Assembly (NCBI GenBank): GCA_958296445.1
Contig: OY282565.1
Span: forward strand, 785,936-849,935
Source: an uncultured Dehalococcoidia bacterium
GTDB lineage: Bacteria; Chloroflexota; Dehalococcoidia; Lucifugimonadales; UBA3495
Direction of reading: 5' to 3'
DNA: 64,000 bases
Positions 862-54,375 of the stretch are shown here, piece by piece. Within the stretch, counting starts at the first letter, position 1, and every line of letters begins with the position of its first letter. Position numbers and translations under genes: made by a program. The notes under the pieces were generated by a model, which worked only from the letters and a program-made list of their open reading frames with translations, searched no databases and was not told where the DNA came from.

Positions 862-865
862 GGCT

Positions 866-21233: not shown

Positions 21234-21265
21234 CCCATACCCGGCATAACCAAGGCGCAATCAAA

Positions 21266-22596: not shown

Positions 22597-22651
22597 CCCC
22601 AACCCCTGCCCCCTACGCCCCCTTTGCGGTAGAATGTAGCGAGGAACCAAT

Positions 22652-24482: not shown

Positions 24483-24510
24483 AAAATCCCCTCCCCCTGA
24501 CCAGCCCCTT

Positions 24511-24790
24511 GTCATTCTGAGCATATACCTGTCATTCTGAGCAAAGCGAAGAATCCCACCTTGGGCGGTGAGACACTTCTCTGAGCATATACCTGTCATT
24601 CTGAGCATATATCTGTCATTCTGAGCAAAGCGAAGAATCTCGCCTTGGGCGGTGAGACACTTCTCTGAGCATATACCTATCACCCTGAGCATATACCTGT
24701 CATTCTGAGCAAAGCGAAGAATCCCACCTTGGGCGGTGAGACCCTTCGCTTTGCTCAGGGTGACAAAGGGTCGCTCAGGGTGACAGACAT
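24511..24790. repeat. Three tandem 84-bp repeats with inverted terminal half
   Basis: Three direct units with a period of exactly 84 bases (GCAAAGCGAAGAATC begins at 24541, 24625 and 24709). Each holds GTCATTCTGAGC, AAAGCGAAGAATC and TTGGGCGGTGAGAC. After the third unit comes the inverted counterpart CCTTCGCTTTGCTCAGGGTGACA, so the block can fold into a large hairpin. There are no unique spacers, so it is not a CRISPR array. The core is shared with the loci at 19.7 and 43.4 kb. Confidence 0.85.
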
Positions 24791-24830
24791 TCGCTCAAGG
24801 CTAGGGCGACAAAAACCCCCGCCTGCAACA

Positions 24831-24865
24831 AAAAAAACCGCCGCCCCAATAACATCGGGGCGGCG
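24831..24865 (-). terminator. Rho-independent terminator of the MBL hydrolase gene
   Basis: On the minus strand a perfect 9-bp stem CGCCGCCCC / GGGGCGGCG with a 9-base loop is followed by a run of seven or more T. It lies about 40 bases after the stop of the MBL-fold gene. Confidence 0.85.
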
Positions 24866-24904
24866 ATTCCGTAGCGCAACCACTGCGCTTGATGCCCGGA
24901 CAGC

Positions 24905-25735: not shown

Positions 25736-25738
25736 CAT

Positions 25739-26413
25739 CAACCACCCATAACCCTTTATCTGCTCTCTGGTTTGCCAAGGTCGCGCTGCCAAACCCGGCC
25801 AAGGCCGCGAAAGGGTTACACCGGACGGCTTGCGGATACTGGAAGAGGAAGTAATACTGCGAAAAAGAAAGACAGCATCCGTAAAATCCGGCGGCGCCTC
25901 GCAGCAACAACCTAGACGCCGGGCCGCGCCCGGCAGGGGCAGCCGCTATATCCACCTCCTAGCTACAGGATTTCCCAAAAAGCGGGGCGTCCGGGCCGGG
26001 AAAGGGCCAACCGGCCCCGCCCATACCCCCCTGAACCACCGCGCATAGCCTAGCAGTTAAAGCCTTGATAACCGGATTGTCAAGCTGAATTTGATAATAA
26101 TCTAAATTATTTCTTAAAATTTATACAAAAATCGTCACCCCGCCCGCCCACACCGGAAATGACCAAATGCCCCCCAAATAACCCTATGTAGGGGCGTGTA
26201 GGGGCGCACAGCCGTGCGCCCGCCCCCCGCGCGTGGAATCCCGCCCCCGCCGGAACGACAGGTTGGCCGGAATGACCCTGGAACGACCCAATGTAGGGGC
26301 GCACAGCCGTGCGCCCGCCCCCGCGCGTGGAATCCCGCCCCCGCCGGAACGACGGCTTGGCGATGATAATGGCCGGTTGGCCGCAATCAACCGGCCCGAA
26401 TCCGCCCGTTCAG
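25739..26413. other. Long intergenic region between divergent MBL and DUF1800 genes
   Basis: About 675 bases. The part from 26040 to 26150 is AT-rich, with TTGATAATAATCTAAATTAT and an A/T run, and could hold the MBL-side regulatory region or an old insertion end. The part from 26198 holds two repeat copies listed separately. No convincing gene was found. Confidence 0.4.
26198..26353. repeat. Two direct copies of a ~61-bp GC-rich repeat
   Basis: GTAGGGGCGCACAGCCGTGC begins at 26198 and again at 26293, each followed by the same GCCCGCCCC...GCGCGTGGAATCCCGCCCC and GCCGGAACGAC. The period is 95 bases. The GCACAGCCGTGC core is palindromic. A degenerate relative (CACCCGTGCGCCCGCCCC) is seen near 55455. 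Confidence 0.75.
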
Positions 26414-26422
26414 TGCTATACT
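26414..26422 (+). promoter_or_regulatory. Extended -10 promoter of the DUF1800 gene
   Basis: TGC directly followed by TATACT (26417-26422), 34 bases before the ATG at 26457, with AAGGAG between. Same TGN-TANNAT pattern as at 13637. Confidence 0.45.
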
Positions 26423-26456
26423 ACCGCCAGACTTGGACGGCGCAAGGAGCAAGGCG

Positions 26457-27881
26457 ATGATACGGACGAGCGAGGCATACGGACAGAGCGAACTCTCCCA
26501 AATGGCCCACCTGTTGCGGCGGGCCGGATTCGGCGCAACCTTCGACGAACTGGAGCAATGCCTCTCCCAAGGCTACGAGGCCACCGTGGAGCGGCTGCTG
26601 CGTCCCGAAGACGCCCCGGAGTGGGACGACGCCCTCTTTCGCCGCTACCACGTAGACCAGAACAGCTTAATGCTCATCGAAAGCTCCCAATCCTATTGGC
26701 TCTACCGGATGATTAACTCACCCCGGCCGCTGGAAGAAAAAATCGCCCTTTTCTGGCACGGCCTGTTCGCCACTGCCTACGGCAAGCTCAACCACGCCAA
26801 AGCCGTAGTCAACCAGACCAACACCTTCCGCCGCCACGGATTGGGAACCTTCCGCAACCTCTTGTCGGAGCTGTCCCGCGACCCGGCTATGATTTTCTGG
26901 TTGGACAACAAGGACAACCACAAGGACGCCCCCAACGAAAACTACGGGCGCGAGCTGCTGGAGCTGTTCTCTATGGGCATCGGCGCCTACTCCGAAGCCG
27001 ACGTAAAGGCCGCCGCCCGCGCTTTCACCGGCTGGACCATCGCCAACCAAGACTATATGAGCGTCCGCGCCTCCCGCGATTCCATCTGGCCCCACGGACG
27101 CCTCGACTGGCAGTTTCAGTACCGCCCCGAAGACCACGACGACAGCCCCAAAACCTTCCTGAACCAGACCGGGCGCTTCAACGGCGAGGACGTGCTGGAC
27201 ATCATCTGCGGCCATCCCGCCAGTAGCTGGTTCTTGGCCGGCAAGCTCCACGCCTTCTTTGTTTCCGACCGCCCGGACGAAGCGGCGACCCAAATCATCG
27301 CCGAAGACCTGCGCCGCACCGGGGGCGACGTGCGCTCCGCCCTGCGAGTCATATTCCTGTCCGACTTCTTTAACTCCGAAAAGGCCCGCTACTCCAAAGT
27401 CAAAAGCCCGGCGGAAGTGGTGGCCGGTGTGGCCCGGATGGCCGGGGCCTTCGGCGCCCCCCACTGGAGCATCGTCAACCTAGCCCTGGACGCCAACTTT
27501 ATGGGCCAAGAAATCCTGAACCCCCCCACCGTCGAAGGCTGGCACACCGGCGCCGAATGGGTGGACACCGGCACGCTGATGGAGCGCGTCAACTCGGCGG
27601 CCCTGCTCATCGGCGACCCGGCCCAGCCCGGCGTCCAGAGCGTCATCCGCCGCCTGCGGGACGACCGCCCAACCTACTCCCCGGCCGAACTGGTGGACGC
27701 CTGCCTCGCCCTGTCCGGGGCCCTGGAAGTGTCCGAAGCCACCCGCCGCGAGCTGACCGCCTACGCCGCAACCCAAGGCGAACTGCGCTTCGAGCCGTCC
27801 TACGCCGCCCCCTGCGCCCAACAGCGCGTCGCCGAGCTGCTCCAGCTAATCGTCTCCACCCGCGAATACCAGATGGCCTAG
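26457..27881 (+). CDS. DUF1800 family protein
   Basis: A 474-residue member of DUF1800, recognisable by HLLRRAGFGAT near the start, EKIALFWHGLFATA, LSRDPAMIFWLDN, NENYGRELLELFSMGIG, ARAFTGW and LNPPTVEGW. The family is common in Chloroflexota and Planctomycetes and often pairs with an exported DUF1501 protein; none is visible here, and this copy has no signal peptide. Biochemical function is not established. The start ATG 26457 follows AAGGAGCAAGGCG; a longer in-frame start 24 bases upstream lacks such a site. Confidence 0.85.
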   Translation: MIRTSEAYGQSELSQMAHLLRRAGFGATFDELEQCLSQGYEATVERLLRPEDAPEWDDALFRRYHVDQNSLMLIESSQSYWLYRMINSPRPLEEKIALFWHGLFATAYGKLNHAKAVVNQTNTFRRHGLGTFRNLLSELSRDPAMIFWLDNKDNHKDAPNENYGRELLELFSMGIGAYSEADVKAAARAFTGWTIANQDYMSVRASRDSIWPHGRLDWQFQYRPEDHDDSPKTFLNQTGRFNGEDVLDIICGHPASSWFLAGKLHAFFVSDRPDEAATQIIAEDLRRTGGDVRSALRVIFLSDFFNSEKARYSKVKSPAEVVAGVARMAGAFGAPHWSIVNLALDANFMGQEILNPPTVEGWHTGAEWVDTGTLMERVNSAALLIGDPAQPGVQSVIRRLRDDRPTYSPAELVDACLALSGALEVSEATRRELTAYAATQGELRFEPSYAAPCAQQRVAELLQLIVSTREYQMA

Positions 27882-27914
27882 CCCGCAACACCCCCACACC
27901 CCGGAGAGATGCCT

Positions 27915-28235
27915 ATGCTGCTCACCCAAGACGTCAAAAAAGAAATCCTGAAGTTCATCGAAAAGAAAATCGAAACCGACGAAATGTGGGCCGAAGCCTT
28001 CAGCAAGCTAATCACCCTAGACGAGCCCGACCAAAACGGCGCCGTCTGGGATATGCTCGAGTCCATCAAGGACTCGATGCGGTGGGATGAGTCCTTCGCC
28101 AAACACCCGGAAGTGCTGGAAAAACTAGCGGAGGGCGCACTGAAATCCTACAAAGAGGGGAAAACAATCTCCCTGGACGAGTTTCTTGCGCTAACCGCAG
28201 AAGACGATTATCGGTCGCCGGACGACAGGAAGTGA
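27915..28235 (+). CDS. Putative antitoxin of a RelE-type module
   Basis: About 106 residues, acidic and helical, with a C-terminal segment KTISLDEFLALTAEDD reminiscent of antitoxin tails that wrap around RelE-family toxins. No clear DNA-binding fold was recognised. The ATG at 27915 is chosen because GGAGAG lies 6 bases before it; the ATG at 27909 directly abuts this site. The stop overlaps the GTG start of the toxin gene, the usual arrangement of type II modules. Identification rests mainly on the partner. Confidence 0.55.
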   Translation: MLLTQDVKKEILKFIEKKIETDEMWAEAFSKLITLDEPDQNGAVWDMLESIKDSMRWDESFAKHPEVLEKLAEGALKSYKEGKTISLDEFLALTAEDDYRSPDDRK

Positions 28236-28495
28236 TTTCACGCACAAGCTCCGAATTTTGGGATGCGTTCAGGAAACTGAATCCTGAGATACAACGCAAA
28301 GTCCGGCGAGCATACGCATTGTTCAAAGATAACCCGCGGCACTCCAGCTTGAAATTCAAGCGAGTACAAGGGACGAGAAACCTTTGCTCCGCCAGGATAG
28401 ACTCAAATTACCGGGTGATGGGCAGGATTGATGGTAGCCTGATAATCTGGTATTGGGTTGGCCCTCACGACGAATACGATAGGATGATTCCCTGA
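28232..28495 (+). CDS. RelE/ParE-family toxin
   Basis: An 87-residue basic protein with the RelE/ParE plan: helix pair SEFWDAFRKLNPEIQRKVRR, AYALFKDNPRHSSLKFKRV, then strands with SARIDSNYRVMG and a final WVGPHDEYD, which resembles the HxxYD end of HigB/RelE-like mRNA interferases. It starts at a GTG overlapping the antitoxin stop (GTGA), so translation is coupled. It probably cleaves mRNA at the ribosome or inhibits gyrase; the fold does not decide which. The last residues abut the ATG of the next gene. Confidence 0.7.
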   Translation: MISRTSSEFWDAFRKLNPEIQRKVRRAYALFKDNPRHSSLKFKRVQGTRNLCSARIDSNYRVMGRIDGSLIIWYWVGPHDEYDRMIP

Positions 28496-28496
28496 T

Positions 28497-29549
28497 ATGA
28501 CCACCACCACCGCAGCCATTCGTTACAGCCACACCGTAGGCTCGCTCTCCAACCAGGGCCGCGGGTTCCAGAACCCGGTAGATTTGGCGCTGGACTCCCA
28601 AGGCGTGATATATGTGCTTAACCGGGCCGGGCCGGAACTCCCCCTGCGCCTGCCCTACAAGCGCGTGTCTATGTGTACCGTGGACGAGGAATACTTGGGC
28701 GAATTCGGCGCCGGCGGCACCGCCCCCGGCGAATTTTGGTGGCCCAGCGCCCTCGCCTTCGACCGCCGCGACCGCCTCTATGTGGCCGACGAAGCCCTCA
28801 ACCGCATCACCGTATTCAACACCCAGGGCGAAACTCTGGATACTTGGGGCGAAGCCGGGGCCGCCCCCGGCCAGCTCAACCGCCCCTCGGGCATCGCCGT
28901 GGACGCCGCCGACAACCTGCTGGTTGCCGACAGCGGCAACCACCGGATACAGATGTTTACCGCCGATGGCCGCTTCCTCCAAAGCTGGGGCGGATTCGGC
29001 GACGGCCCGGGCCGCTTCAACACGCCCTGGGGCCTAGCCCTAGACAGCGCGGGCAGCGTCTACGTATCCGATTGGGGCAACGACCGGATTCAGAAGCTGG
29101 ACGCCGCCGGGCAGTATCTGGCCCAATTCCCCCGGCCCGGCGCCCCGATCCCCCAAGAGCGGCGCATCCGCCGCCCCGCCGGGCTGTGTGTTGACGCCGA
29201 GGGCATAATATACGTGGCCGACTGGGGCAACGAGCGCGTGCGCGTGCTGTCCCCCGAGGGCGAACTGCTGGCTACGCTGCGGGGCGACTCCCAAACCCCC
29301 ACTTGGGCCAACGAGTATTTTCAGGCCAACCCCGAGGAAGCCGCCCTGCGCCTAGAGGCCGACCTGTCGCCCGCCGTTGCCCCGCCCGGAGGTTTCGGAA
29401 CAACGCCCGACCGCGAGGAGTCGGCCAACGTGGAAAAGCTGTTCTGGGGGCCGACATCCGTGAAACTCGACGGGCGCGGCAACCTGCTGGTAGCCGATAG
29501 CTGCCGCCACCGCATTCAAGTCTACCGCTGGGAAGGCCGGACGGAGTAG
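28497..29549 (+). CDS. NHL-repeat beta-propeller protein
   Basis: A 350-residue protein made of six NHL-like repeats, each with a pattern such as FNRPSGIAVDAADNLLVADS / GNHRIQMF. Successive units are seen at about 20-50, 70-105, 115-150, 165-200, 225-260 and 310-345. No signal peptide or catalytic residues are evident, so it is a cytosolic six-bladed propeller, probably for protein or ligand binding. Its ATG lies one base after the toxin stop and its end 2 bases before the MFS gene, so it shares an operon with both. Confidence 0.85.
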   Translation: MTTTTAAIRYSHTVGSLSNQGRGFQNPVDLALDSQGVIYVLNRAGPELPLRLPYKRVSMCTVDEEYLGEFGAGGTAPGEFWWPSALAFDRRDRLYVADEALNRITVFNTQGETLDTWGEAGAAPGQLNRPSGIAVDAADNLLVADSGNHRIQMFTADGRFLQSWGGFGDGPGRFNTPWGLALDSAGSVYVSDWGNDRIQKLDAAGQYLAQFPRPGAPIPQERRIRRPAGLCVDAEGIIYVADWGNERVRVLSPEGELLATLRGDSQTPTWANEYFQANPEEAALRLEADLSPAVAPPGGFGTTPDREESANVEKLFWGPTSVKLDGRGNLLVADSCRHRIQVYRWEGRTE

Positions 29550-29551
29550 GG

Positions 29552-31009
29552 ATGATTCCAAACAATCAGCCAGCCGCGCAACCGGCGGCACAACGCCGGG
29601 GCGCCTACTATGGCTGGTACGTCGTGGTGACCGCTATGTTCATCGCCGCAGTCACCACCGGAGCCCGCAACGGCTTTGGCGTTTTCGTAATCCCGATGAG
29701 CGAATCCTTTGAGTGGAACCGCACCACTATATCCGTCGCCGCCGGTATCGGCTTTCTGATGAACGGGATTACCCAGCCCCTAGTGGGCCACCTGTTCGAC
29801 AAATTCAACTCCCGCAAGGTCATTCTCATCAGCCTGCTGGTGGCCGGCATAGCCACCGCCGGGTTGAGCCTGACTTTCCATTACCTTTTCCTAGTGTTCT
29901 TGTTCAGCTTCGTGCTGTCCACCGCGATGAGCGGCGCGTCCATCGGCACACTAGCGCCGCTGCTGGCCCGGTGGTTCGTGAAGCGCCGCACCACGGTGCT
30001 GGGGCTGGTGGCGGCCGGCACATCCTTGGGCGGGCTGATACTGATTCCCTTCAGTGCCTACATAGTAGAGCTGTTCAACTGGCGGGTGTCTTGGATTGCT
30101 CTGGGTATGATCGTAACTTTTCTGGCCCTGCCTTTGGGCTTTATATTCCTGCGCAACAACCCGGCGCAGATGGGCCTGCTGCCCGACGGAGACCCAGCCC
30201 CCCCTTCCGGCGCGGCGGGCAGCGCCCCGGTGCGCTCGCGCGGTATGTTCGAGGTTGACCAGTGGCGGCAGTGTTTCCGCTCGCCGCCTATCTGGAACCT
30301 TTCCGCCGCCTACACCGTTTGCGGCGTGACCGTAGGTCTCATATCCGTCCACTTCGTGGCTTACGCCGATGAACAAGTGGGAGTTTCGCCCACGATGGCC
30401 GGCCTGATCTTTGGCATTCTGACGGGCCTGAACGTGATAGGCGCCATCGGCGGCGGCTGGCTGGCCGACCGTTTTGGACGCAAGAACGTGTTAGGGACGG
30501 TCTACGCCGTGCGAGGCATCGCCTACCTAGTATTGATAGGCGGCCTGCTTTCGGTAGACAGTATTTTTCTGGGCGGAGGCGAAGTTGGCTACGGCGGAGT
30601 CAGCATGGCAGGAGATCCGTTGGGGTCTTTCCGGGTGGACAAGTTCACCATTCCTTTCCTAGGATCGCCGGGGGTGACGAGCCTTTGGCTGTTCGCCATA
30701 CTGGCCGGCTTTTCTTGGATTGCCAGCGTGCCGATCACCACGTCGCTGACTGCCGAGGTTTACGGGCTGCGGGCGCTGGCGACCATTTCGGGAATTTCCT
30801 TCCTGTGCCACCAAGTAGGCGCCTTTGTCAGCATCATACTGGCGGGAGTGCTGTTCGACCGGACCGGCTCCTACCTGCTGCCCTTCGCCCTCGCCGGCGC
30901 CCTGCTGATTCCCGCGTCCATAGCCGCATACACCATCAACGAAAAGAAATACTCAGTGCGCTACCAAACCGCCCCCGCCCCCGCAGCAGGCGCCGCAGCC
31001 GGGGATTAG
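29552..31009 (+). CDS. MFS transporter, monocarboxylate/OFA-like
   Basis: A 485-residue major facilitator with about 12 hydrophobic segments. The start YYGWYVVVTAMFIAAVTTGARNGF... matches the N-terminal helix of the MCT/OFA branch, followed by SESFEWNRTTIS and a GHLFDKFNSRKV loop between helices 2 and 3. The second half shows GGWLADRFGRKNV. An extra stretch after about residue 340 (GGEVGYGGVSMAGDP) is an unusual insertion. Substrates of this branch are organic anions such as oxalate, formate or monocarboxylates. It starts 2 bases after the NHL gene. Confidence 0.85.
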   Translation: MIPNNQPAAQPAAQRRGAYYGWYVVVTAMFIAAVTTGARNGFGVFVIPMSESFEWNRTTISVAAGIGFLMNGITQPLVGHLFDKFNSRKVILISLLVAGIATAGLSLTFHYLFLVFLFSFVLSTAMSGASIGTLAPLLARWFVKRRTTVLGLVAAGTSLGGLILIPFSAYIVELFNWRVSWIALGMIVTFLALPLGFIFLRNNPAQMGLLPDGDPAPPSGAAGSAPVRSRGMFEVDQWRQCFRSPPIWNLSAAYTVCGVTVGLISVHFVAYADEQVGVSPTMAGLIFGILTGLNVIGAIGGGWLADRFGRKNVLGTVYAVRGIAYLVLIGGLLSVDSIFLGGGEVGYGGVSMAGDPLGSFRVDKFTIPFLGSPGVTSLWLFAILAGFSWIASVPITTSLTAEVYGLRALATISGISFLCHQVGAFVSIILAGVLFDRTGSYLLPFALAGALLIPASIAAYTINEKKYSVRYQTAPAPAAGAAAGD

Positions 31010-36620: not shown

Positions 36621-36764
36621 CGATTTCCTTGATCCACCATAGCCCTACTGGGGTGGCTAAGCCCTTCTCGCAGAGAAAAGCTGGGTCAGGGCCGTCTATC
36701 GCCGTTGTTAATGGGGGATTTGATTCGTTTCTGGCATCCTCCAGTTGCGCCACTGCGCTTCCCA

Positions 36765-36773
36765 TGCTAAAAT
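36765..36773 (+). promoter_or_regulatory. Extended -10 promoter of the restriction-modification pair
   Basis: TGC directly followed by TAAAAT (36768-36773), 55 bases before the endonuclease ATG. Confidence 0.35.
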
Positions 36774-36828
36774 GCGCGACAGATTATCAGACCAATCCCT
36801 ACTTTGGCGGAGAGGAGAGAAGATACTG

Positions 36829-37596
36829 ATGGCATACGATGACTTGACATTCAAGATTCCCGTTGAATCCGAAGATTATAAAGAATGTTCGGATTTTGTT
36901 GTCGCTTCAGTGGAGGGGATTATCCAAGACGCAATGGATGCTGGTAAGAACAAAATAGTAATCAACACTAATCTGAAGAAAGGCATTCCTATGGAAAACG
37001 TAAATAAAATCGCGGGGCCCTTCATAGAAGCATGGGCACTTGAAATGTTTCAAGACGCCCTTGAAGATGAGAACAACCAATACCATTTGATAAATGTTGA
37101 GGCAGGAGAGCGTCTTAATATGGCAGATGTAATACTTCAGTTTGAAGTAATCAGAAAAAGAATGTCCTCCATTTCAGGTTACGTGGATGTGAAAGCAACA
37201 TCGAGAGACATTCCTAACAGTGGAAAGTCCCCTAACATAACTTCGTTTGCACGCATACGGACAGCCTACATAAGAGATCCAGACTATATATTTGTTATTT
37301 TGTCCATCAAACATAGTGTGTTCAGTACGCGCGACAAGAACACAAAAATGATGATGGGGGTAATGGAAGTTGTTGATTTCAAAGCGTATGACCTAAAATA
37401 TATCGCTGACTCCGACATACAATATAATTCAGCATTAGGCAGCGGCCAGATACAAATAAAAGATATACATTACGTTGCCCTTGAGCAACGTAACACTTGG
37501 GAATTTTGTCAATTACTTGACAGAAAGTGTATATCATCAGCAAAGGGCTTCGACAACTGGTTGCGCTATGCAAAGCAGAACGGATGGACAAAATGA
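36829..37596 (+). CDS. Type II restriction endonuclease, PD-(D/E)XK type (putative)
   Basis: A 255-residue protein whose gene overlaps that of a DNA methylase (ATGA). A PD-(D/E)XK core is likely in the segment starting MADVILQFEV and continuing GYVDVKATSRDIPNSG, where Asp-Val-Lys fits the catalytic D/E-x-K and is followed by a TSFARIRTAY helix as in EcoRV-like enzymes. The ATG at 36829 has AGGAGAGAAG upstream. The gene is strongly AT-rich against its GC-rich neighbours gltX and fumC, which indicates recent transfer. The recognition site cannot be told. Identification rests on the partner, size and the nuclease-like motif. Confidence 0.7.
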   Translation: MAYDDLTFKIPVESEDYKECSDFVVASVEGIIQDAMDAGKNKIVINTNLKKGIPMENVNKIAGPFIEAWALEMFQDALEDENNQYHLINVEAGERLNMADVILQFEVIRKRMSSISGYVDVKATSRDIPNSGKSPNITSFARIRTAYIRDPDYIFVILSIKHSVFSTRDKNTKMMMGVMEVVDFKAYDLKYIADSDIQYNSALGSGQIQIKDIHYVALEQRNTWEFCQLLDRKCISSAKGFDNWLRYAKQNGWTK

Positions 37597-38465
37597 ATAA
37601 TATCGAGATACTGTCTGGCGACGCACTGGATTTGTTTGAGACAATTGAAGACGAGTCTGTTGATTTGGTAATCGCAGATCCGCCGTACAATTTGGGCAAA
37701 AACTATGGAAACAACAATGACTCTTGGGATTCTGAGAGTTATTTGGAATTTTCCCAAAAATGGCTTTCTCACTCCAAAAGAGTGCTAACTCCAAACGGAG
37801 CTATATATGTGTTTATGGGCGTCCGGTTTATTTCTTATTTGTACAGTATCATGGACAAAGATTTAGCGTTGCTTTTTAACAGTTGGATAGTTTGGCACTA
37901 CACACAGGGAATAGGGAAAACTCTCGGATTCTCTCCGCGCCACGATGATATACTATTGTTTACCAAATCAAAAAATTTCACATTCAACTTGGACCCTGTG
38001 CGAATCCCCCAAAAATACTACAGAGCTAGAAATAATATGCGAGGAGCGAACCCCGGTGATGTTTGGGAATTTTCCCATGTTCACTATTGTAACACAAATA
38101 GAGAAAACCATCCCACACAAAAACCTGAAGGTTTGATAGAAAGAATGGTTCTAGCATCAAGTAATGAAGGAAACTTGGTGTTAGATCCATTCGTTGGCAG
38201 CGGTACAACATTGCGGGTTTGCCAGCAGCTCAATCGGTCTGCTATTGGATTTGAAATCAATCCTGAATATGTTGCCATGACGAAAGAGCGACTTGCGACG
38301 CCTTTCGGTGGGTTTGATAGCATTGATCCAAGGATGTTGCGAATCCCTAACGACTTGAGAACCACCAGCATCAGGAAGGAATATCTTAAAAATCATGCTC
38401 AGTGGTTTTTGAAAAATCACGGACAATACAACTTGGAATTCAATAATCCCGAAAATCTTTTTTGA
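37593..38465 (+). CDS. DNA methyltransferase (N6-adenine/N4-cytosine, beta class)
   Basis: A 290-residue methylase. Motif IV, VIADPPYNLG (residues about 26-35), comes before motif I, LDPFVGSGTTLRVC (about 197-210), the order of beta-class enzymes; HPTQKPEGLIERMVLAS is the typical segment between them. The DPPY version is used by N6-adenine and some N4-cytosine methylases. It protects host DNA from the endonuclease encoded just before it (4-base ATGA overlap). The gene is AT-rich, and CATG, otherwise avoided in this genome, occurs several times in the pair. Confidence 0.92.
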   Translation: MNNIEILSGDALDLFETIEDESVDLVIADPPYNLGKNYGNNNDSWDSESYLEFSQKWLSHSKRVLTPNGAIYVFMGVRFISYLYSIMDKDLALLFNSWIVWHYTQGIGKTLGFSPRHDDILLFTKSKNFTFNLDPVRIPQKYYRARNNMRGANPGDVWEFSHVHYCNTNRENHPTQKPEGLIERMVLASSNEGNLVLDPFVGSGTTLRVCQQLNRSAIGFEINPEYVAMTKERLATPFGGFDSIDPRMLRIPNDLRTTSIRKEYLKNHAQWFLKNHGQYNLEFNNPENLF

Positions 38466-44984: not shown

Positions 44985-46025
44985 TCACCCCAGCGGCAGC
45001 CCCGGCTCAACGTCCAGCTCCAGCGGCCACTGCTCGCCCCGCTGGTGCTGGTAATAGGCGCACGCCGCCACCATCGCCCCGTTGTCGGTGCAAAGCACCG
45101 GCGGCGGGATGATTACCGGCAGCGGCGAGCGGCGCAGAATCTCCTCCCGCAGCCGCGCGTTGGCGGTCACCCCGCCCCCCAATACCAGCCCCCGCACCCC
45201 GTACTTGCGGGCCATCTCCACCAGCTTGACCGATATAACATCCACCACCGACTCCTGAAAGGCCGCCGCCAGCTCCCGCACCGCCGCCGCCATCGCCCCG
45301 TCGTCTAGCGCATTTTCCGAATCGGCGGGATACACCCCCTGCCCCTGCGCCAGATGCAACAACGCCGTTTTCAGCCCGCTGAAGCTGAAATCATGCGTAT
45401 CGCGCATCCAGGCGCGGGGCAAAGAAAAGCCGCCCGCCGCCCCCTGCGCCACCCGCTGGATTTCCGGCCCGCCGGGAAACCCCAGCCCCAGTATGCGGGC
45501 CGCCTTGTCGAAGGCTTCCCCCGCCGCGTCGTCGCGGGTGCGCCCCACCAGCCGGTAAACCCCATGCCCCTCCATCAGCAGCAGGTCGGTATGCCCCCCC
45601 GACGCCACCAGACAAGCCAGCGGAAACCCCGGGGCATCGGCCGGATTCGCCGGAGTCAGCCACGACGCATAAATATGCGCCTCCAGATGATTCACCCCAA
45701 TAAAAGGCTTCCCCAAACTATATGCGACAGCCTTGGCCGCGTTCAGCCCGGTCAGCAACGAACCCGCCAGCCCCGGCCCATAAGTGACCGCCACCGCATC
45801 CACATCCTCCAGCCCCATCCCGCACGACTCCACCGCCCGCTCCAGCACCGGCGCCAAGTCGCGCACGTGCTGCCGCGACGCCACCTCCGGCACCACCCCC
45901 CCGTACCGCGAATGCAACTCCGCCTGCGACGAAATGACATTCGAGCGCAACACCCGCCCATCCTCTACCACCCCCGCCGCCGTTTCGTCGCAAGAAGTTT
46001 CAATCCCCAAGATTCTCAAAGCCAT
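44985..46025 (-). CDS. tsaD: tRNA N6-adenosine threonylcarbamoyltransferase
   Basis: A 346-residue ASKHA-fold enzyme that, with TsaB/TsaE/TsaC, attaches threonylcarbamoyl to A37 of ANN-decoding tRNAs. Landmarks: ILGIETSCDETAAGVV at the start, GGVVPEVASRQHVRDL, the metal-binding HxxxH in GVNHLEAHIYA, CLVASGGHTDLLL, and the terminal metal ligand in CTDNGAMVAAC. Length and motif order are those of the bacterial family. MtaB, which methylthiolates the product, is encoded 21 kb away. TsaB and TsaE are not in the window. Confidence 0.95.
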   Translation of the reverse strand: MALRILGIETSCDETAAGVVEDGRVLRSNVISSQAELHSRYGGVVPEVASRQHVRDLAPVLERAVESCGMGLEDVDAVAVTYGPGLAGSLLTGLNAAKAVAYSLGKPFIGVNHLEAHIYASWLTPANPADAPGFPLACLVASGGHTDLLLMEGHGVYRLVGRTRDDAAGEAFDKAARILGLGFPGGPEIQRVAQGAAGGFSLPRAWMRDTHDFSFSGLKTALLHLAQGQGVYPADSENALDDGAMAAAVRELAAAFQESVVDVISVKLVEMARKYGVRGLVLGGGVTANARLREEILRRSPLPVIIPPPVLCTDNGAMVAACAYYQHQRGEQWPLELDVEPGLPLG

Positions 46026-46212
46026 ACGCCCATCCGCCTCTAAACTAGGCTATCCGCCGCAAATACGTAAGCCATAACGCCGGAACCCTGGCCCGAATAT
46101 AGCATTGCGTCCCCGGCGATTTCAATGACAATAAAAGGACACTCAAACCCGGGGCCGCCCGCCCGCCCGCCCGTAATCAAGAGCCCGTAATCAAGAAATG
46201 GAGAGCAAACCG

Positions 46213-49200
46213 ATGCCCGACCGCCGCCACATCCTAGACAACCAAACCGCCACTGTCGCCGACCACCTGCGCCGCACCCTGCGCCGCGCCGACGCCTTCG
46301 ATTTCGTTTCCGCCTACTTCACCGTCTACGGCTACGAACTGCTGGCCGAGGAGCTGGAAAGCGTCGCCCGGGTGCGCTTCCTCTTCGGCGACCCAACATC
46401 CGTAGAGCAGCTAGACCCCGCAGCCCAGGAACCCAAATCCTTCGAGCTAACCGAGCAAGGTTTGGCCCCCAACCACATCCTGCGGCAACGCCAATTGGCG
46501 AAGCAGTGCGCCGCCTGGGTAGCCCGCGACAGCGTGAACATCCGCTCCGTCCGGCAGTCCAACTTCCTCCACGGCAAGCTCTACCTAACCGGCGGCCCCA
46601 ACGGTGCCGCCGGAATAGTCGGCAGCTCCAACTTCACCAAGCGCGGGCTAGGCGGCAGCCAGCAAGCCAACCTAGAAATCAACCTAGCCGCCGACGACCC
46701 CGCCACCCTCTCCGAACTCCAAGAATGGTTCAACCGCCTATGGCGCGACCAACGCCGCACCGAGGACGTCAAAGCGCGGGTGCTGGACGCCCTCAAACGC
46801 ATCGGCCAAGACTACGCCCCCGAGCGGGTCTACTACAAAACCCTCTACGAAATTTTCCGCAAAGACATTGAAGCGATGCAGGCCAACGACGACGCCCTCA
46901 ACGCCGCCGGTTTCACCGCAAGCCAAATCTGGAACACCCTCTACGAGTTCCAGAAAGACGGCGTAAAAAGCGTCCTCGCCAAGCTACAAGCCCACAACGG
47001 CTGCATCCTAGCCGACAGCGTAGGCTTGGGCAAAACCTACACCGCCCTAGCCGTCATCAAGCGCTTCGAGCTACGCAACGACCGCGTCCTGGTTCTTTGC
47101 CCCAAGAAACTCGAGGAAAACTGGTCCCTCTATCAGGCCGCCAACAACCACATCCAAAACCCCTTCCCCGACGACCGCTTCGGCTACACCCTGCTGGCCC
47201 ACACCGACTTGTCCCGGGATTCCGGCAGAACGGGCAGCATTGACCTAGCCAACTTCAACTGGAGCAACTACGACTTGGTAGTCATAGACGAGTCCCACAA
47301 CTTCCGCAACGACGACGGCCGCCGCTACCGCCGCCTGCTCGACGACGTTATCGCCGGCGGCGCCCGCACCAAAGTGCTTATGCTCTCCGCCACCCCCGTC
47401 AACACCTCCCTAGTTGACCTCCGCAACCAAATCTACCTGATGACCGAAAAGCGCGAGGACGCCTTCCGCCAAACCCTAGGCGTAGGCAACATCCGCGCCC
47501 TGATGTCCGCCGCCCAAAAGCAGTTCAAGGAATGGGAAACCGGCCAAAGACGCAGCCCCCGCCGCGATAAATCCCTGCTGCTGGACAACCTAGGCGCCGA
47601 CTTCCTGCGCCTGCTCGACGCCGTCTCCATCTCCCGCTCCCGGCGGCTGGTAGAGCAGTTCTACGCCGCCGAAATGGAGCGCATCGGCCGGTTCCCCCAG
47701 CACGCCCCGCCCGTCAACCACTACCCGCCCACCGACACCGGCGGCAGCCTTTCCTACAAAGACCTAGCCGACCGCATCGGCCAGTTCCGCCTCGCCGTCT
47801 ACCAGCCCTCCGCCTACGTCACCGACCCCGACCGCCTCGCCGGCCTAGCCGCCGCCCGCCAGCGATACAACTTCAACCAGCAGGACAGCGAAACCTTCCT
47901 AGCCGGAATGATGCGTACCAATTTCCTCAAACGCCTAGAAAGCTCCGCCCACTCCCTTACCCTGACCCTAAAGCGCACCATCGCCAAAATTGACGACCTG
48001 CTGGACAAAATAGACCGCCACCAAAAAGCCAGCCAATCCGCCAATAACCCGCCAACCCCCGACGTCCTCCCCGATAACGACGTCCTCCCCGACGACGATA
48101 ACGACGACGACGAGTTTTTCGTCAACCGCGGCCGCAACCCCTACCGCCTCTCCGAGCTGGACTTACCCCGCTGGCAAAACGACTTGCGCCGCGACAAATC
48201 CACCCTCTCCGACGCCCTCCAACAGGTAAGCGCCGTCACCCCCGACCGCGACGGCAAGCTCGCCGCCATCCGCCAGGCCGTCCGCGACAAGGCCGCCCAC
48301 CCCCCCGCCGACCGCGACGGCAGCCCCAACCGCAAGCTGCTGATATTCACCACCTTCAAGGACACCGCCCAATACCTCTACCGCAACCTTTCCCCCCTAG
48401 CCGCCGGCCTAGGCGTCAACATCGCTATGGTATCCGGCGACGAAACCCATACCGCCGTCGGCCCCAACAACTTCAACTCCATCCTCTCCAACTTCGCCCC
48501 CGCCGCCCGCCGGCGCCCCCCCGCCCCCGCCAACCCCGACATAGACCTGCTCATTGCCACCGACTGCATATCCGAAGGCCAAAACCTGCAAGACTGCGAC
48601 ACCGTAATCAACTACGACATCCACTGGAACCCAGTCCGCATCGTCCAGCGCTTCGGGCGCATCGACCGCATCGGCAGCCGCAACCCATCCGTCCAAATGG
48701 TCAACTACTGGCCCACCCCCGATATGGACGTCTACCTCCGGCTGGAAAGCCGCGTGCAGGCCCGGATGGCCCTAGCCGACATCGCCGCCAGCGGCGACGC
48801 CGACCCCTTCACCGAAGCCGACGCCCAAACCGAACTCACCTTCCGCAACAACCAACTCCGCCGCCTCCGCGACGAAGCCCTCACCCTAGAGGAACTCGAC
48901 GACGTCCCCACCCTAGGCGACTTCACCCTGGACCACTTCATCGCCCAGCTACTACGCTACCTAGAGCGCAACAAAGACGAACTCGAAGCAATGCCCGCCG
49001 GTGCCTACGCCGTAGCCCCCGCCCCCGGCAACGTTAATGCAGGCAAAGCCGCCCCCGGCGTGATATTCTGCCTCCGACAGCGCAACGCCGCCCCCGCTAA
49101 CCCCGGCAATGCCGAAACCGGAAGCCGAACCGCCAGCCCAAAGCATCCCTACTACTTCGTCTATATCCTGCCCGACGGCGCCATCCGTTTCGGCTGCGCC

Positions 49201-49500
49201 AACCTGCAACAAACCCTGGCCGTCTTCGAGGCCGCCGCCATAGGCCAAACCGCCCCCCTAACCCAACTCTGCGACCGATTCGACCGCGAAACCGACCAAG
49301 GCCGCGATATGTCCCTATACGACCGCCTCCTCACCGCCGCCATCGCCGACATCCAAACCCAGCACAACCGCGAGCAAACCGCCGGCCTAGGACTCTTCGG
49401 CGACCCCAACTTCAGGCTCCCCACCGCCGCCGAAGCCCCCGACAGCCCCGACGCCTTCGAGCTAATAACCTGGCTGGTAATTATGGAGCAGGAACGATGA
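46213..49500 (+). CDS. PLD-nuclease/SNF2-type helicase of a restriction-like system
   Basis: A 1095-residue protein. An N-terminal phospholipase-D-like nuclease domain has a single HKD half-motif, HGKLYL at about 120-125 followed by GSSNFT (137-142). Then comes a superfamily 2 helicase: Walker A SVGLGKT (about 269-275), DESH (359-362), LSATPVN (motif III), and C-terminal motifs SEGQNLQ and QRFGRIDRIGS. PLD-helicase proteins of this plan belong to restriction and phage-defence loci. A start at ATG 46213 is chosen because GGAGAG lies 7 bases upstream; an ATG at 46198 is in frame. The stop overlaps the methylase ATG. Codon use is fully native, so it is an old resident. Confidence 0.85.
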   Translation: MPDRRHILDNQTATVADHLRRTLRRADAFDFVSAYFTVYGYELLAEELESVARVRFLFGDPTSVEQLDPAAQEPKSFELTEQGLAPNHILRQRQLAKQCAAWVARDSVNIRSVRQSNFLHGKLYLTGGPNGAAGIVGSSNFTKRGLGGSQQANLEINLAADDPATLSELQEWFNRLWRDQRRTEDVKARVLDALKRIGQDYAPERVYYKTLYEIFRKDIEAMQANDDALNAAGFTASQIWNTLYEFQKDGVKSVLAKLQAHNGCILADSVGLGKTYTALAVIKRFELRNDRVLVLCPKKLEENWSLYQAANNHIQNPFPDDRFGYTLLAHTDLSRDSGRTGSIDLANFNWSNYDLVVIDESHNFRNDDGRRYRRLLDDVIAGGARTKVLMLSATPVNTSLVDLRNQIYLMTEKREDAFRQTLGVGNIRALMSAAQKQFKEWETGQRRSPRRDKSLLLDNLGADFLRLLDAVSISRSRRLVEQFYAAEMERIGRFPQHAPPVNHYPPTDTGGSLSYKDLADRIGQFRLAVYQPSAYVTDPDRLAGLAAARQRYNFNQQDSETFLAGMMRTNFLKRLESSAHSLTLTLKRTIAKIDDLLDKIDRHQKASQSANNPPTPDVLPDNDVLPDDDNDDDEFFVNRGRNPYRLSELDLPRWQNDLRRDKSTLSDALQQVSAVTPDRDGKLAAIRQAVRDKAAHPPADRDGSPNRKLLIFTTFKDTAQYLYRNLSPLAAGLGVNIAMVSGDETHTAVGPNNFNSILSNFAPAARRRPPAPANPDIDLLIATDCISEGQNLQDCDTVINYDIHWNPVRIVQRFGRIDRIGSRNPSVQMVNYWPTPDMDVYLRLESRVQARMALADIAASGDADPFTEADAQTELTFRNNQLRRLRDEALTLEELDDVPTLGDFTLDHFIAQLLRYLERNKDELEAMPAGAYAVAPAPGNVNAGKAAPGVIFCLRQRNAAPANPGNAETGSRTASPKHPYYFVYILPDGAIRFGCANLQQTLAVFEAAAIGQTAPLTQLCDRFDRETDQGRDMSLYDRLLTAAIADIQTQHNREQTAGLGLFGDPNFRLPTAAEAPDSPDAFELITWLVIMEQER

Positions 49501-52500
49501 ACCACCAAAACATCACCGCCCCCAGCGCAACCAACGAAATCCAAACCGCCCTGTCCGCCCTAGCCAACGGCAGCCTAGCCGCCGGCGCCGACGCCCTGCT
49601 ACAAACCCTAGGCTACCGCAGCGACCGCCGCCTAAACGGGCAGACCGGCCACCCCGCCGATTTCGTCAAAACCTTTCCCGCGCCCCAACCCGGCACGGAA
49701 TCGGAACGCGCCTTCCTGCAACACGCCGCCGAAGCCCGCATCCTGTTCCAGCTAACCGACGCCGAAATCCCCGACGCCGCCGACCCCCAAGCCCGCCTGC
49801 TCGACGCCGCCCCCGCCTTCAGCCAAGGCAACAACAAAAGTTTCCTCTTCGCCGCCGTCCAACTACGCCAAACCAACTACCCCCGCGGCCAATACGCCGC
49901 CTTCGCCCGGGAAATAAACAAGCGCATCCCCATCCCCGCCGTAGTCCTGTTCCGCACCCACGACGACAACCTAATAACCCTGGCCTTCGTCCACCGCCGC
50001 CCCAACAAAACCCGCCCCGGCCGCCAAGTGCTGGGCAGCGTCTCCCTAATCCGGGAAATCAACCCCTCAAGCCCCCACCGCGCCCACCTAGATATACTAG
50101 ACCAACTCTCCCTCCCCCAACGCCGACGCTGGATGCACATCAACGCCAAGCCCCCCAACTTCGACGGCCTCCTAGACGCCTGGCTCGACGCCCTAGACAC
50201 CGAGGAACTCAACCGCCGCTTCTACCGCGAACTTTTCGCCTGGTTCGAGCGGGCCACCCGCGAAGCCCGGTTCCCCGATACCCCTTCCCCCGCCCAAGAA
50301 GCCCGTAGCCAAAAACAAACCCTAAAAGCCGAGGAACACGTAATCCGCCTCATAACCCGCCTCCTCTTCGTCTGGTTCATTAAAGAAAAAGGGCTCGTCG
50401 CCGAACCCCTCTTTACCGAAACTCAAGTAGCCCCCCTGCTAAAAAACTACGACCGCGCCCACGGCGATTCCTACTACCGCGCCATCCTGCAAAACCTCTT
50501 CTTCGCCACCCTCAACACCGAAACCGCCCACCGACGCTTCAGTGCCAAAACCCGCGACGACCACCGCAACTTCTCCGTCTACCGCTACCAAGACCAAATC
50601 GCCGACCCCGACGCCCTCCTCCGGCTCTTCGCCCAAACCCCCTTCATCAACGGCGGCCTCTTCGACTGCCTAGACAGCTACGCCGCCAAAGGCAGCGGCG
50701 GCCTCCGCGTAGACTGCTTCACCGACAACCCCAAACACCGCGCCGACTGCTCCGTACCCAACCGCCTCTTCTTCAGCGACCCCGGCGCCGACCCCGACCC
50801 CGGCCTAATCAACCTATTCAACCGCTACAAATTCACCGTCGAGGAAAACACCCCCGCCGAACAGGAAGTAGCCCTAGACCCCGAACTCCTAGGCAAAGTC
50901 TTTGAGAACCTACTAGCCGCCGTCAACCCCGAAACCAGCCTAACCGCCCGCAAAGAAACCGGCTCCTACTACACCCCCCGTCCCGTAGTAGACTATATGG
51001 CCGACCAGGCCCTAACCGCCGCCCTAGCCCAAAAAGCCCACCCCGACCCGGACAACCCCGCCCCCTGGCCCGGCCGCCTGCGCTGCCTGCTCGACTACGA
51101 TGACCCCTTCGACGCCCCCCAAACCCTATTCACCCCCGCCGAACAAGAAAGCATCATCCGCGCCATCGCCGCCCTCAAAACCCTCGACCCCGCCGTAGGC
51201 TCCGGCGCCTTCCCAATGGGCATCCTCCACAAACTAACCCTCGCCCTCCGACGCCTGGACCCCCACAACCGCACCTGGGAAAAAATCCAGCGCGAACAAG
51301 CCGCCAACCGCGCCGCCAACGCCTTCGACACCGACGACCCCAACGCCCGCGCCGACGAACTCCAAGAAATCAGCAACATCTTTGAGAAATACCGCAACTC
51401 CGACTACGGGCGCAAACTCTACCTCATCCAAAACACCATCTACGGCGTAGACCTCCAGCCCATCGCCGCCCAAATCGCCAAACTCCGCTTCTTCATCTCC
51501 CTAGCCATCGAACAGCAGCCCAACCCCCACGCCGACAACTACGGCATCAAGCCCCTCCCCAACCTAGAAACCCGATTCGTAGCCGCCGACACCCTCCGCG
51601 CCCTCCAACGCCCAACCCAAAGAACCCTAGGCCAGACCGACGCCGTAACCAACCTAGAACAGGAAATCGCCGCCAACCGGGAACGCCACTTCCACGCCAA
51701 CACCCGCCAAACCAAACTAAACTGCCGCCAAACCGACGCCCGCCTCCGCCGCCAACTCGCCAAACAACTACAATCCGCCGGCTTCCCCGCCGCCTCCGCC
51801 AACCAAATCGCCCAATGGGAACCCTTCGACCAAAACGCCCCCGCCGCCCAATGGTTCGACCCCGAATATATGTTCGGCGCCCCCCACGGCTTCGACATCG
51901 TAATCGGCAACCCCCCCTACATCCAGCTACAAAAAGACGGCGGCAAGCTAGGCAACCTCTACGAAAACGCCGGATTCACCACCTACGCCCGCACCGGCGA
52001 CATCTACCAATTGTTCTACGAAAAAGGCTGCCAACTGCTCAAACCGGACACCGGCCTGCTGGCCTACATCACATCCAACAGTTGGCTCAAAGCGGAATAC
52101 GGCAAATCCACCCGCCGCTGGTTCGCCGAGCGCCATACCCCGGTTCGCCTGCTGGAAATGGGCAAAGACGTCTTCGAGCAGGCCATCGTTGACGCCAGCA
52201 TCCTGATTGTCCGCCACGGCAAAAGCGCCACCCCCGGCCTAGGCGTGGATATGGACCGTCTAACCGACAAAACCTTCCCCCCCGATGAACCCCTATGGAG
52301 CGAACTGCGCCCCCACGCAGAAAAACCGTGGACTCTGCTGTCCCCCGTAGAGCAGTCGGTAATGGACAAAATAGAAGCAACAGGCACCCCGCTGAAAAAT
52401 TGGGATGTGACAATCTACCGCGGCGTCACCACCGGCCTAAACGACGCCTTCATCATTGACGCCGACACCCGCCAAGCGTTAATAGCCGCCGACCCCAAAT

Positions 52501-53174
52501 CCGCAGAAATCATCAAGCCCGTACTGCGAGGCCGCGACATTCGTAACTATCAATCACGGTGGACAGGGTTGTACCTGATCACGACTTTCCCGGCACTGGA
52601 AATTGACATTGATAATTATCCGGCAGTAAAAGAGCATTTGCTGTCTTTTGGGCAAGAGCGGTTAGAGCCAACCGGCAGGATGCTTCCGGGCGGCATACGG
52701 TCTCGTCGAAAAGCTCGCCATTCGTGGTTCGAGGTACAAGATGCCACTGCCTATCACGCAGAATTTGCCAAAGAAAAACTGTTCTGGGCCGATATGGCAA
52801 AAACCGGCCGGTTTGCCTATTCGGACAGCGAAACCTACTGCAACAACAAAGGCTACATAATGACCGGAAAATCATTAAAGTACCTTTGCGCAGTCCTCAA
52901 CAGCTCGCTGATAACCTGGTACATACAAAACACAGCGGCAACCACCGGAATGGGATTGACGGAATGGACGATAGTCACCGTAGAGCGAATCCCCATCCCC
53001 CGCCTAACGGCAACCCAACGCCGCCCCCTAGAGCGACTAACAACCCAAATACTACGGGCCAAAGCAACCAACCCCCAAGCAAACGTCACCGACCTAGAGG
53101 CGGAGATAGACCGCCAGGTATATGCCCTCTACGGCCTTACGCCAGAGGAAATCGCGGCAGTGGCAAGGGGGTAG
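49497..53174 (+). CDS. Eco57I-family DNA methyltransferase (type IIG-like)
   Basis: A 1225-residue protein. After a ~500-residue N-terminal region (with FVWFIKEKGLV and a YYTPRPVVDYMADQA segment typical of this group) comes the gamma-class adenine methylase: motif I LDPAVGSGAF at about 562-571 and motif IV IGNPPYIQL at about 801-809. The C-terminal ~350 residues form a TaqI-like target-recognition domain (RGVTTGLNDAFII, PVLRGRDIRNY, WADMAKTGRFAY). The N-terminus may hold a nuclease, but I see no clear PD-(D/E)XK motif. With the helicase encoded just before (ATGA overlap) it forms a two-gene modification and translocation/cleavage system. Confidence 0.88.
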   Translation: MNHQNITAPSATNEIQTALSALANGSLAAGADALLQTLGYRSDRRLNGQTGHPADFVKTFPAPQPGTESERAFLQHAAEARILFQLTDAEIPDAADPQARLLDAAPAFSQGNNKSFLFAAVQLRQTNYPRGQYAAFAREINKRIPIPAVVLFRTHDDNLITLAFVHRRPNKTRPGRQVLGSVSLIREINPSSPHRAHLDILDQLSLPQRRRWMHINAKPPNFDGLLDAWLDALDTEELNRRFYRELFAWFERATREARFPDTPSPAQEARSQKQTLKAEEHVIRLITRLLFVWFIKEKGLVAEPLFTETQVAPLLKNYDRAHGDSYYRAILQNLFFATLNTETAHRRFSAKTRDDHRNFSVYRYQDQIADPDALLRLFAQTPFINGGLFDCLDSYAAKGSGGLRVDCFTDNPKHRADCSVPNRLFFSDPGADPDPGLINLFNRYKFTVEENTPAEQEVALDPELLGKVFENLLAAVNPETSLTARKETGSYYTPRPVVDYMADQALTAALAQKAHPDPDNPAPWPGRLRCLLDYDDPFDAPQTLFTPAEQESIIRAIAALKTLDPAVGSGAFPMGILHKLTLALRRLDPHNRTWEKIQREQAANRAANAFDTDDPNARADELQEISNIFEKYRNSDYGRKLYLIQNTIYGVDLQPIAAQIAKLRFFISLAIEQQPNPHADNYGIKPLPNLETRFVAADTLRALQRPTQRTLGQTDAVTNLEQEIAANRERHFHANTRQTKLNCRQTDARLRRQLAKQLQSAGFPAASANQIAQWEPFDQNAPAAQWFDPEYMFGAPHGFDIVIGNPPYIQLQKDGGKLGNLYENAGFTTYARTGDIYQLFYEKGCQLLKPDTGLLAYITSNSWLKAEYGKSTRRWFAERHTPVRLLEMGKDVFEQAIVDASILIVRHGKSATPGLGVDMDRLTDKTFPPDEPLWSELRPHAEKPWTLLSPVEQSVMDKIEATGTPLKNWDVTIYRGVTTGLNDAFIIDADTRQALIAADPKSAEIIKPVLRGRDIRNYQSRWTGLYLITTFPALEIDIDNYPAVKEHLLSFGQERLEPTGRMLPGGIRSRRKARHSWFEVQDATAYHAEFAKEKLFWADMAKTGRFAYSDSETYCNNKGYIMTGKSLKYLCAVLNSSLITWYIQNTAATTGMGLTEWTIVTVERIPIPRLTATQRRPLERLTTQILRAKATNPQANVTDLEAEIDRQVYALYGLTPEEIAAVARG

Positions 53175-53192
53175 ACGCCGCCGCAGGCCGCG

Positions 53193-53201
53193 TGGTACAA
53201 T
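53193..53201 (+). promoter_or_regulatory. Extended -10 promoter
   Basis: TGG directly followed by TACAAT (53196-53201), 40 bases before the ATG at 53242. Confidence 0.35.
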
Positions 53202-53241
53202 GGCAACGTCGCCTAGTTGAGCAGCAATGGAGTGAGCTATA

Positions 53242-53340
53242 ATGCGCCACCCTCATAAACTCCAAAACAGAAAACCTAATGTCACTAGTGAGATTCAAAG
53301 GAAAGCCGAACAAAAGATCGAACATCTTAAGGGCGAGTGA
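53242..53340 (+). CDS. Short ORF, probably the N-terminal piece of the following gene
   Basis: Thirty-two codons from ATG 53242 (GGAGTGAG 5 bases upstream) to TGA 53338-53340. It reads MRHPHKLQNRKPNVTSEIQR and then a charged helix ending HLKGE. The same frame continues without another stop straight into the next gene (DKIADLLQKSNQE..., then MNNSHVIGEK), so this is probably the start of one protein split by a nonsense codon. As an independent peptide it would be unusual. Confidence 0.45.
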   Translation: MRHPHKLQNRKPNVTSEIQRKAEQKIEHLKGE

Positions 53341-53418
53341 GACAAAATAGCCGACCTACTACAAAAGAGCAACCAAGAATGCTTAATTCCTTGCGTCTCA
53401 GAGGAAAAGCACAATGAG

Positions 53419-54375
53419 ATGAACAACTCTCATGTCATTGGAGAAAAATTCCTCGAACTCATAGCTAACAAGAGAGGCCAAGTGCTCTCTTGGCCTCTAT
53501 CTGTGCGGGCATTAGGGCACCTAGCAATTGATCTGCTACGCGCTGGAGAGTGGCAGCTATATCCACCATACTTCGACATCAAAAAATACCCACCTGTTCC
53601 GTTGCGAAAGAACCACAAGGAACTCAAGTTCACCTTTGCCTGCCAATATCACGACGGCAAAATTTTCAAACTTGCCGATGACCCAGTAGGATTCAACCCT
53701 CAAGACCCCGAAACTCAGTTTGAACTGGCCTTGAGAACAATAGCCGCACACACAGCCATCTATCAAGGCCACAAGCAATATGCCCGGAAGGATTTTGACG
53801 ATGACTCTGAAATCCATCAACATATACAGAAACACCCGGAGCTACGACAGATAGCTAAAATAGCGTGGGCTTTCGGAGCAACGCAATCCACAGTCGAAAA
53901 CCAGCTAGAACACGAAATAGACCGTTGGCAAACTGTCGGCAAAAAATCGGATAGGAGTAGGGTTGTGTCATTTGCAACAATGACATCCCCTAAATTGCGG
54001 CTTGCCGGAACAAGTATCCGACAGCGTAATGGACATCATATTGCAGTCTCTATACTGCCTACCATTCAGGGTAGCTGCGCAATCATCGCTACTACTCTTG
54101 CCCGTCCCAAGCCGCTATGGTGGGTAGACAAATGGATGTGTCAATCAGCGGTACGCAGCGAAGCAGAGGCCATAAAAGATCTGCTGGAAAACACGCAGCC
54201 TGCCCATTGGTTAGCGCAGTTAGCAACGGAGTGGGTGTTCTTGTACGTATCACCAGACGACTACGGAAAACTTCCAGAAGAAGACCGCCTACGGATAGAG
54301 CAAAGCGCCGGACGAAAATATAGAGAGATGTTTGAATATCTCCCTACAGCCCAAACCCTAGGCAGCGCAGGTTAG
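53419..54375 (+). CDS. Hypothetical protein downstream of the methylase
   Basis: A 318-residue protein with no recognised domain. The ATG at 53419 has GAGGAAAAG 10 bases upstream. It is soluble, with a charged central helix (about 115-170) and a C-terminal part containing PKPLWWVDKW and HWLAQLATEWVFLYV. The frame is open upstream to the TGA at 53340 and joins the short ORF there, so the natural protein may be about 377 residues. Lower GC than the methylase operon suggests separate acquisition. Its position next to a restriction-like operon makes a defence role plausible but unproven. Confidence 0.65.
   Translation: MNNSHVIGEKFLELIANKRGQVLSWPLSVRALGHLAIDLLRAGEWQLYPPYFDIKKYPPVPLRKNHKELKFTFACQYHDGKIFKLADDPVGFNPQDPETQFELALRTIAAHTAIYQGHKQYARKDFDDDSEIHQHIQKHPELRQIAKIAWAFGATQSTVENQLEHEIDRWQTVGKKSDRSRVVSFATMTSPKLRLAGTSIRQRNGHHIAVSILPTIQGSCAIIATTLARPKPLWWVDKWMCQSAVRSEAEAIKDLLENTQPAHWLAQLATEWVFLYVSPDDYGKLPEEDRLRIEQSAGRKYREMFEYLPTAQTLGSAG

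Follow-up and report, generated by a model that had tools for sequence, protein, structure and literature searches.

Why should almost 7 kb of a bacterial chromosome contain no CATG, and is this peculiar to the stretch or a property of the whole genome? The window analysed here is a 64-kb segment with 60% GC, positions 785,936-849,935 of a single-contig 4.0-Mb genome, and the stretch in question spans positions 46,213-53,174 of it (6,962 bp). Both were described in an earlier sequence-only reading. The product of the argH gene in the window has 79-80% protein identity with MAGs named Dehalococcoidia or Chloroflexi. The features referred to below are the following (window coordinates).

1-4550, minus strand: defence-like island with PDC-M33B, PDC-M33A and GmrSD-type genes (PADLOC and Pfam)
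20717-30603: longest CATG-free stretch of the window, 9.9 kb (a gap of 9,891 bp between the CATG at 20,713 and 30,604)
36745-37596, plus strand: type II restriction endonuclease of the 36.8-kb pair (PADLOC PDLC03492, E 2.3e-99)
37527-38465, plus strand: beta-class N6/N4 DNA methyltransferase, partner of the endonuclease (Pfam PF01555, E 1.1e-64; PADLOC PDLC03299)
45567-53430: CATG-free stretch enclosing 46,213-53,174, between consecutive CATG at 45,563 and 53,431
46198-49500, plus strand: HKD/PLD and SNF2 helicase defence protein, 1100 aa (PADLOC PDLC01075 HKD+Snf2, E 1.8e-106; Pfam PLDc_2, SNF2 and Helicase_C)
49497-53174, plus strand: type IIG-like restriction enzyme/methyltransferase, 1225 aa (PADLOC PDLC03596, E 3.7e-135; Pfam Eco57I and TaqI_C)

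CATG in the window and along the chromosome

A direct count confirms that 46,213-53,174 holds no CATG. The expectation of roughly 20 given by the sequence-only reading was slightly high; the maximal-order Markov model that was applied to the stretch and to the window gives 14.2. In the entire window, CATG occurs 48 times against 195 expected, and this observed/expected ratio (O/E) of 0.25 is the lowest of all 256 tetramers, followed by GATC at 0.31. The genome-wide Markov test that the earlier reading had called for was carried out on 60 blocks of 20 kb (1.2 Mb) across the 4.0-Mb chromosome, and again places CATG lowest, with 844 occurrences against 3,829 expected (0.22), and GATC at 0.226. 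The statistics throughout are based on 1.2-1.76 Mb, complemented by pattern counts over the whole genome. At the genome's own CATG rate, 4.9 sites are predicted in the reported stretch and the probability of finding none is 0.007; gaps of at least 6,962 bp make up 6 of the 784 gaps in the chromosome sample. Because similar and longer gaps recur, among them the one of 9,891 bp that had been overlooked, the stretch is representative of a genome depleted throughout rather than special in itself. Neither does it consist of ordinary native genes, as had been supposed: it encodes a defence pair, the HKD+Snf2 protein and the IIG-like enzyme, with native-like codon use. The gene for the latter, which has a native-like codon score, overlaps the helicase gene by 4 bp.

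As for the islands thought to be foreign, the minimum numbers of CATG previously given for the 36.8-kb pair (five) and for the first 4.5 kb (seven) hold, with 6 sites counted in 36,745-38,465 and 7 in the first 4.5 kb. Both regions are low-GC defence genes, and the O/E of CATG is 0.78 for the pair (GC 41%) and 0.40 for the first 4.55 kb, the remaining window being at 0.22. The endonuclease of the pair has no Pfam or NCBIfam match, and a structure prediction for it reached a mean pLDDT of only 36. Across the genome, CATG stands at 0.43 in DNA of GC 0.42-0.47 and at 0.18 above GC 0.65, while the 13 most avoided words rise from an O/E of 0.020 in high-GC DNA to 0.175 in low-GC DNA. These increases toward low GC fit a gradual purging after import. 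CATG density, which had been proposed as a map of foreign islands, is thus higher in the islands and at low GC, but marks imported DNA only weakly, and is uncorrelated with trinucleotide distance (Spearman -0.008).

Nested CATG words and other missing palindromes

CATG is its own reverse complement, and when its occurrences are split by flanking bases, the symmetric RCATGY contexts are far lower than all others. In the 1.2-Mb sample there are 3 RCATGY sites against 758 expected (O/E 0.004). The four individual RCATGY words lie at 0.000-0.006 and the other contexts at 0.10-0.41, for instance CCATGG with 75 observed of 500 expected and TCATGA with 14 of 143. The complete genome contains GCATGC 5 times, and ACATGC not at all on the forward strand and twice on the reverse (GCATGT), against 774 occurrences of the control word with reversed letters; none of 147 other genomes of the class has fewer than 86 ACATGC/GCATGT. 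The sharpest avoided word is therefore RCATGY, with a weaker second layer across all CATG.

Comparison among relatives resolves three nested layers, GCATGC, RCATGY and CATG, that are separable by lineage. Avoidance of GCATGC is widespread across the order (for example 1/20 in G028, 2/24 in G033 and 1/20 in G016). RCATGY other than GCATGC stands at 1/425 here, at 0/27 in the relative G004, which belongs to another genus, and at 10/36, a partial depletion, in the congener G001. CATG as a whole is at 0.27 here, 0.47 in G004 and 0.93 in the congener; CATG is at normal levels in sampled relatives of equal GC, and CATG outside RCATGY lies at 0.74-1.21 in 16 of the sampled relatives, with G004 (0.47) as the exception. 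NlaIII recognizes CATG, NspI RCATGY and SphI GCATGC, and the three depleted word sets are equal to these three recognition sequences. GATC is avoided almost evenly across all flanks (0.23), resembling the trace of a four-base reader, and is at 0.11 in another relative (G037). A segment of a Litorilinea MAG (L065) has CATG at 0.34 of expectation (21/63), when nearly all other fetched loci are close to 1, and may represent an independent case.

The avoidance is not confined to CATG but takes in about 20 palindromes of six bases; 24 of the 64 possible ones lie at approximately 0.10 or below. Among these 24 are (observed/expected) GGTACC (2/338), ACGCGT (2/262), AAGCTT (4/202), GCTAGC (8/360), CAGCTG (14/443) and CTGCAG (14/305), and palindromes such as GACGTC (1.42), CCTAGG (1.21) and GTATAC (1.01) are not avoided. 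Pooled over all palindromes, the ratio is 0.33, compared with 0.92 for words one base off. The list varies among relatives, GCGCGC being at 0.04 here and at 1.18 in G004. A loss that is specific to word and lineage fits many separate enzymes rather than a general dislike of palindromes, and with about 20 words involved, no single enzyme explains the pattern. The restriction-type palindrome avoidance proposed from the sequence thus stands as a genome-wide effect beyond codon use, but its sharpest target is RCATGY and it extends over some 20 palindromes, not to the site of one enzyme.

Resident restriction-modification genes and a candidate CATG reader

The genome encodes 56 DNA methyltransferase ORFs, although two short adjacent ones may be fragments of a single gene. 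In a set of 18 genomes, palindrome O/E falls as methylase hits become more numerous (Spearman -0.63, p 0.005), and does so too when the present genome is left out (-0.56, p 0.02); one relative, G024, shows strong palindrome avoidance though no PF01555 or PF02086 methylase was found in it. Endonucleases that adjoin methylases and can be named by Pfam were compared with the O/E of their words. A HindIII family endonuclease (E 1.7e-92) adjoins a beta-class methylase of foreign codon use at 126,579-128,430 of the genome (L232:5580-7431), and its word AAGCTT is at 0.020. Eco47II lies beside a methylase, with GGWCC at 0.085, as does a BsaWI-like endonuclease, with ACCGGT and TCCGGA at 0.04, and also MvaI/BcnI, with CCWGG at 0.45 versus CCSGG at 0.89. 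For a CfrBI-like endonuclease, CCWWGG shows no special avoidance and is similar to control words, and for a NotI-like endonuclease, GCGGCCGC is at 0.39, not below its core. The avoided words therefore match most, not all, of the nameable resident endonucleases, among them HindIII, Eco47II and the BsaWI-like enzyme. NCBIfam and Pfam searches gave no family names for the unnamed endonucleases.

The arsenal includes about 12 methylase-nuclease fusions with an Mrr or HNH nuclease. Beta-class methylases that carry an Mrr-type nuclease at the C-terminus stand in tandem at 1,728,993-1,732,286 and 1,743,533-1,746,771 of the genome (L229:4994-8287 and L230:5534-8772), and near-full-length homologues exist in Mesorhizobium and others. 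The fusions at 1,728,993 and 1,730,754 are almost identical in their N- and C-terminal parts and 4-43% identical in the middle segment, which looks as if target-recognition domains had been swapped. It is conceivable, at rather long odds, that such expanded single-chain fusions (beta-class methylase with C-terminal Mrr or HNH nuclease) partly enforce the avoidance of many palindromes. If so, tandem fusions with a swapped target-recognition segment would generate new palindromic specificities, and the missing words of the genome would record how these arose. In one case, a methylase-HNH fusion is followed by a protein with a CAP12/Pycsar TIR domain (L239:6374-9003). The sole C5 cytosine methylase found adjoins a DndB-family gene (L197:4472-6894).

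The genome yielded no gene with a proven specificity for CATG or RCATGY. The NlaIII/ICEA family (PF05315) gave no match in 40 genomes, and gave none in control genomes either, and no homologue of NlaIII, NspI or SphI was identified. The leading candidate for the CATG layer, a tentative one, is the following pair (genome coordinates).

2,911,355-2,913,338 (L157:11355-13338): type II endonuclease (PADLOC PDLC03568, E 1.9e-126) followed by a D12 methylase at 2,912,205-2,913,338

The pair is situated between molybdenum-hydroxylase-type subunit genes, and occupies the same slot in G004 (L318), where the methylase is 78% identical. Among the sampled relatives, G004 alone shows a clear avoidance of CATG overall. 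Among the D12 matches of the other 38 relatives there is no close homologue of the methylase, and when 400 Chloroflexota genomes were drawn, the endonuclease was absent from the 399 others and present only in this one. A search of viral contigs for the endonuclease found none, a comparison of the pair with PDB sequences gave no match, and a plasmid tblastn with the methylase returned only distant D12 methylases in mixed surroundings. The D12 methylase could equally well be a GATC reader, and the beta-class methylases common to this genome and G004 remain alternatives as readers of CATG.

Selection, its rivals and known systems

Codon use or dinucleotide bias could make CATG rare, in particular as 458 of the 842 genic CATG fall at the codon junction xxC/ATG. 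In the corresponding null model, synonymous codons of 1,167 genes were swapped among sites with the same amino acid and the same preceding and following base, which preserves the proteins, the genome codon use and the junction dinucleotides. This shuffle expects 4,394 CATG where 842 are observed (O/E 0.19, z -96), and 823 RCATGY where there are 2. Depletion is strongest at the xxC/ATG junction itself (458 versus 3,857 expected), but is present in all three reading frames, and relatives of the same GC show normal CATG. Codon use and dinucleotides hence do not account for the avoidance, and this explanation, rejected by the shuffle, has next to no chance of being right; the outcome that the earlier reading had named as a refutation, CATG at the expected frequency after such a correction, did not occur. 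The alternative that methylated cytosine within CATG decays from C to T finds some favour in the over-representation of TATG (1.32 in the window), but would not be expected to produce the observed codon replacements. Among four-fold codons that precede ATG, the share ending in C is 6% instead of 56%, and all three other bases gain, G rising from 21 to 47%, T from 11 to 26% and A from 12 to 21%. The CAT share of His codons drops from 35-45% to 12% before G, CAC being used instead, and A in xCN codons is down to 3% before TG; neither change follows from decay of C. The claim that codons before Met usually end in T or A is accordingly not exact, G being the commonest base. Since the gain is spread over G, T and A, the loss is selective rather than mutational in character, and decay of methylated cytosine was rejected as highly improbable on this pattern.

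If selection is at work, it need not be directed against cutting. The cost might lie in methylation of the sites, by disturbed expression or regulator binding, and solitary methylases could then suffice. Such a possibility has been raised (PMC4687349), and some methylases here adjoin housekeeping genes without a recognized endonuclease, but coding DNA is depleted in all frames, and endonuclease families, not methylases alone, can be matched to three or more of the avoided words, so that a cost of methylation is quite unlikely to be the main cause. Only a little less doubtful is the idea that the words are lost during passage of DNA between cells rich in restriction-modification (R-M) systems, where only site-free DNA survives and exchange spreads such alleles. 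Low-GC DNA, which is probably imported, has no RCATGY against 21.7 expected at GC below 0.50, and its palindromes are reduced. However, the 13 most avoided words stand higher there (0.17 versus 0.02) and purging is greatest in high-GC, native-like DNA, so that most of it follows arrival. Finally, the HKD-SNF2 and IIG pair is a restriction-type system located within the CATG-free stretch, but is very unlikely to be the CATG reader, as the absence of CATG there is ordinary for the genome and a survey found type IIG systems without site avoidance (PMC4687349).

The most probable explanation, to which we assign a probability of about 0.8, is that selection against self-cutting by type II R-M systems has cleared CATG-containing words from the chromosome. 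The specificities at work would have been three, nested in one another, on GCATGC (SphI-type), RCATGY (NspI-type) and CATG (NlaIII-type). Whenever methylation of a site fails or the methylase is lost, the matching endonuclease would cut the chromosome, and lineages that shed sites, mostly via synonymous third-base changes, would do better. The same process would have purged about 20 other palindromes, probably because the genome harbours, and exchanges, an unusually large set of R-M systems. Plain self-restriction fits less well with CCWWGG, at 0.65 despite the resident CfrBI-like enzyme, and is strained by the near-zero values, because nearly excluded sites are rarer in cellular genomes; their lower frequency in prokaryotes than in lytic phages has been ascribed mainly to host methylation, which weakens selection (PMC6286503), and the present values are an extreme exception to this. 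The case is thereby a test of the strength that self-restriction can attain in a cellular genome. Having lost over 99% of one degenerate word, as well as some 20 palindromes of six bases, the genome offers a readable record of past restriction systems, and as the depletion splits into nested words that can be compared between relatives, R-M specificities may be ordered and assigned without methylome data.

Avoidance of orthodox type II sites is established (Gelfand and Koonin 1997; PMC4687349, Rusinov et al. 2015), and the phenomenon as such is already known. The present genome shares with it the codon-independent depletion of palindromic restriction sites in an R-M-rich genome, and a weaker effect in recently imported DNA. 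CATG at 0.22 and RCATGY at 0.004 are both below the survey's avoidance threshold of 0.78, and the relatives lack the depletion (0.74-1.21 in 16, with G004 at 0.47, and with G024 excepted for palindromes generally). No cognate endonuclease was identified for CATG, though one is present for AAGCTT (HindIII) and one for GGWCC (Eco47II family). The difference is one of strength and breadth, which are exceptional here. Comparable in breadth is Microcystis aeruginosa PCC 7806, which has 21 putative restriction enzymes, 4 palindromes below a ratio of 0.02, and palindromes as 51% of the rarest 1% of six-mers (PMC2442094). The present genome similarly combines many restriction enzymes with rare palindromes, 5 of which are below 0.02 and which make up 19-21 of the 41 rarest six-mers, but differs in belonging to an unrelated phylum, in its high GC, and in the resolved nested layers of CATG.
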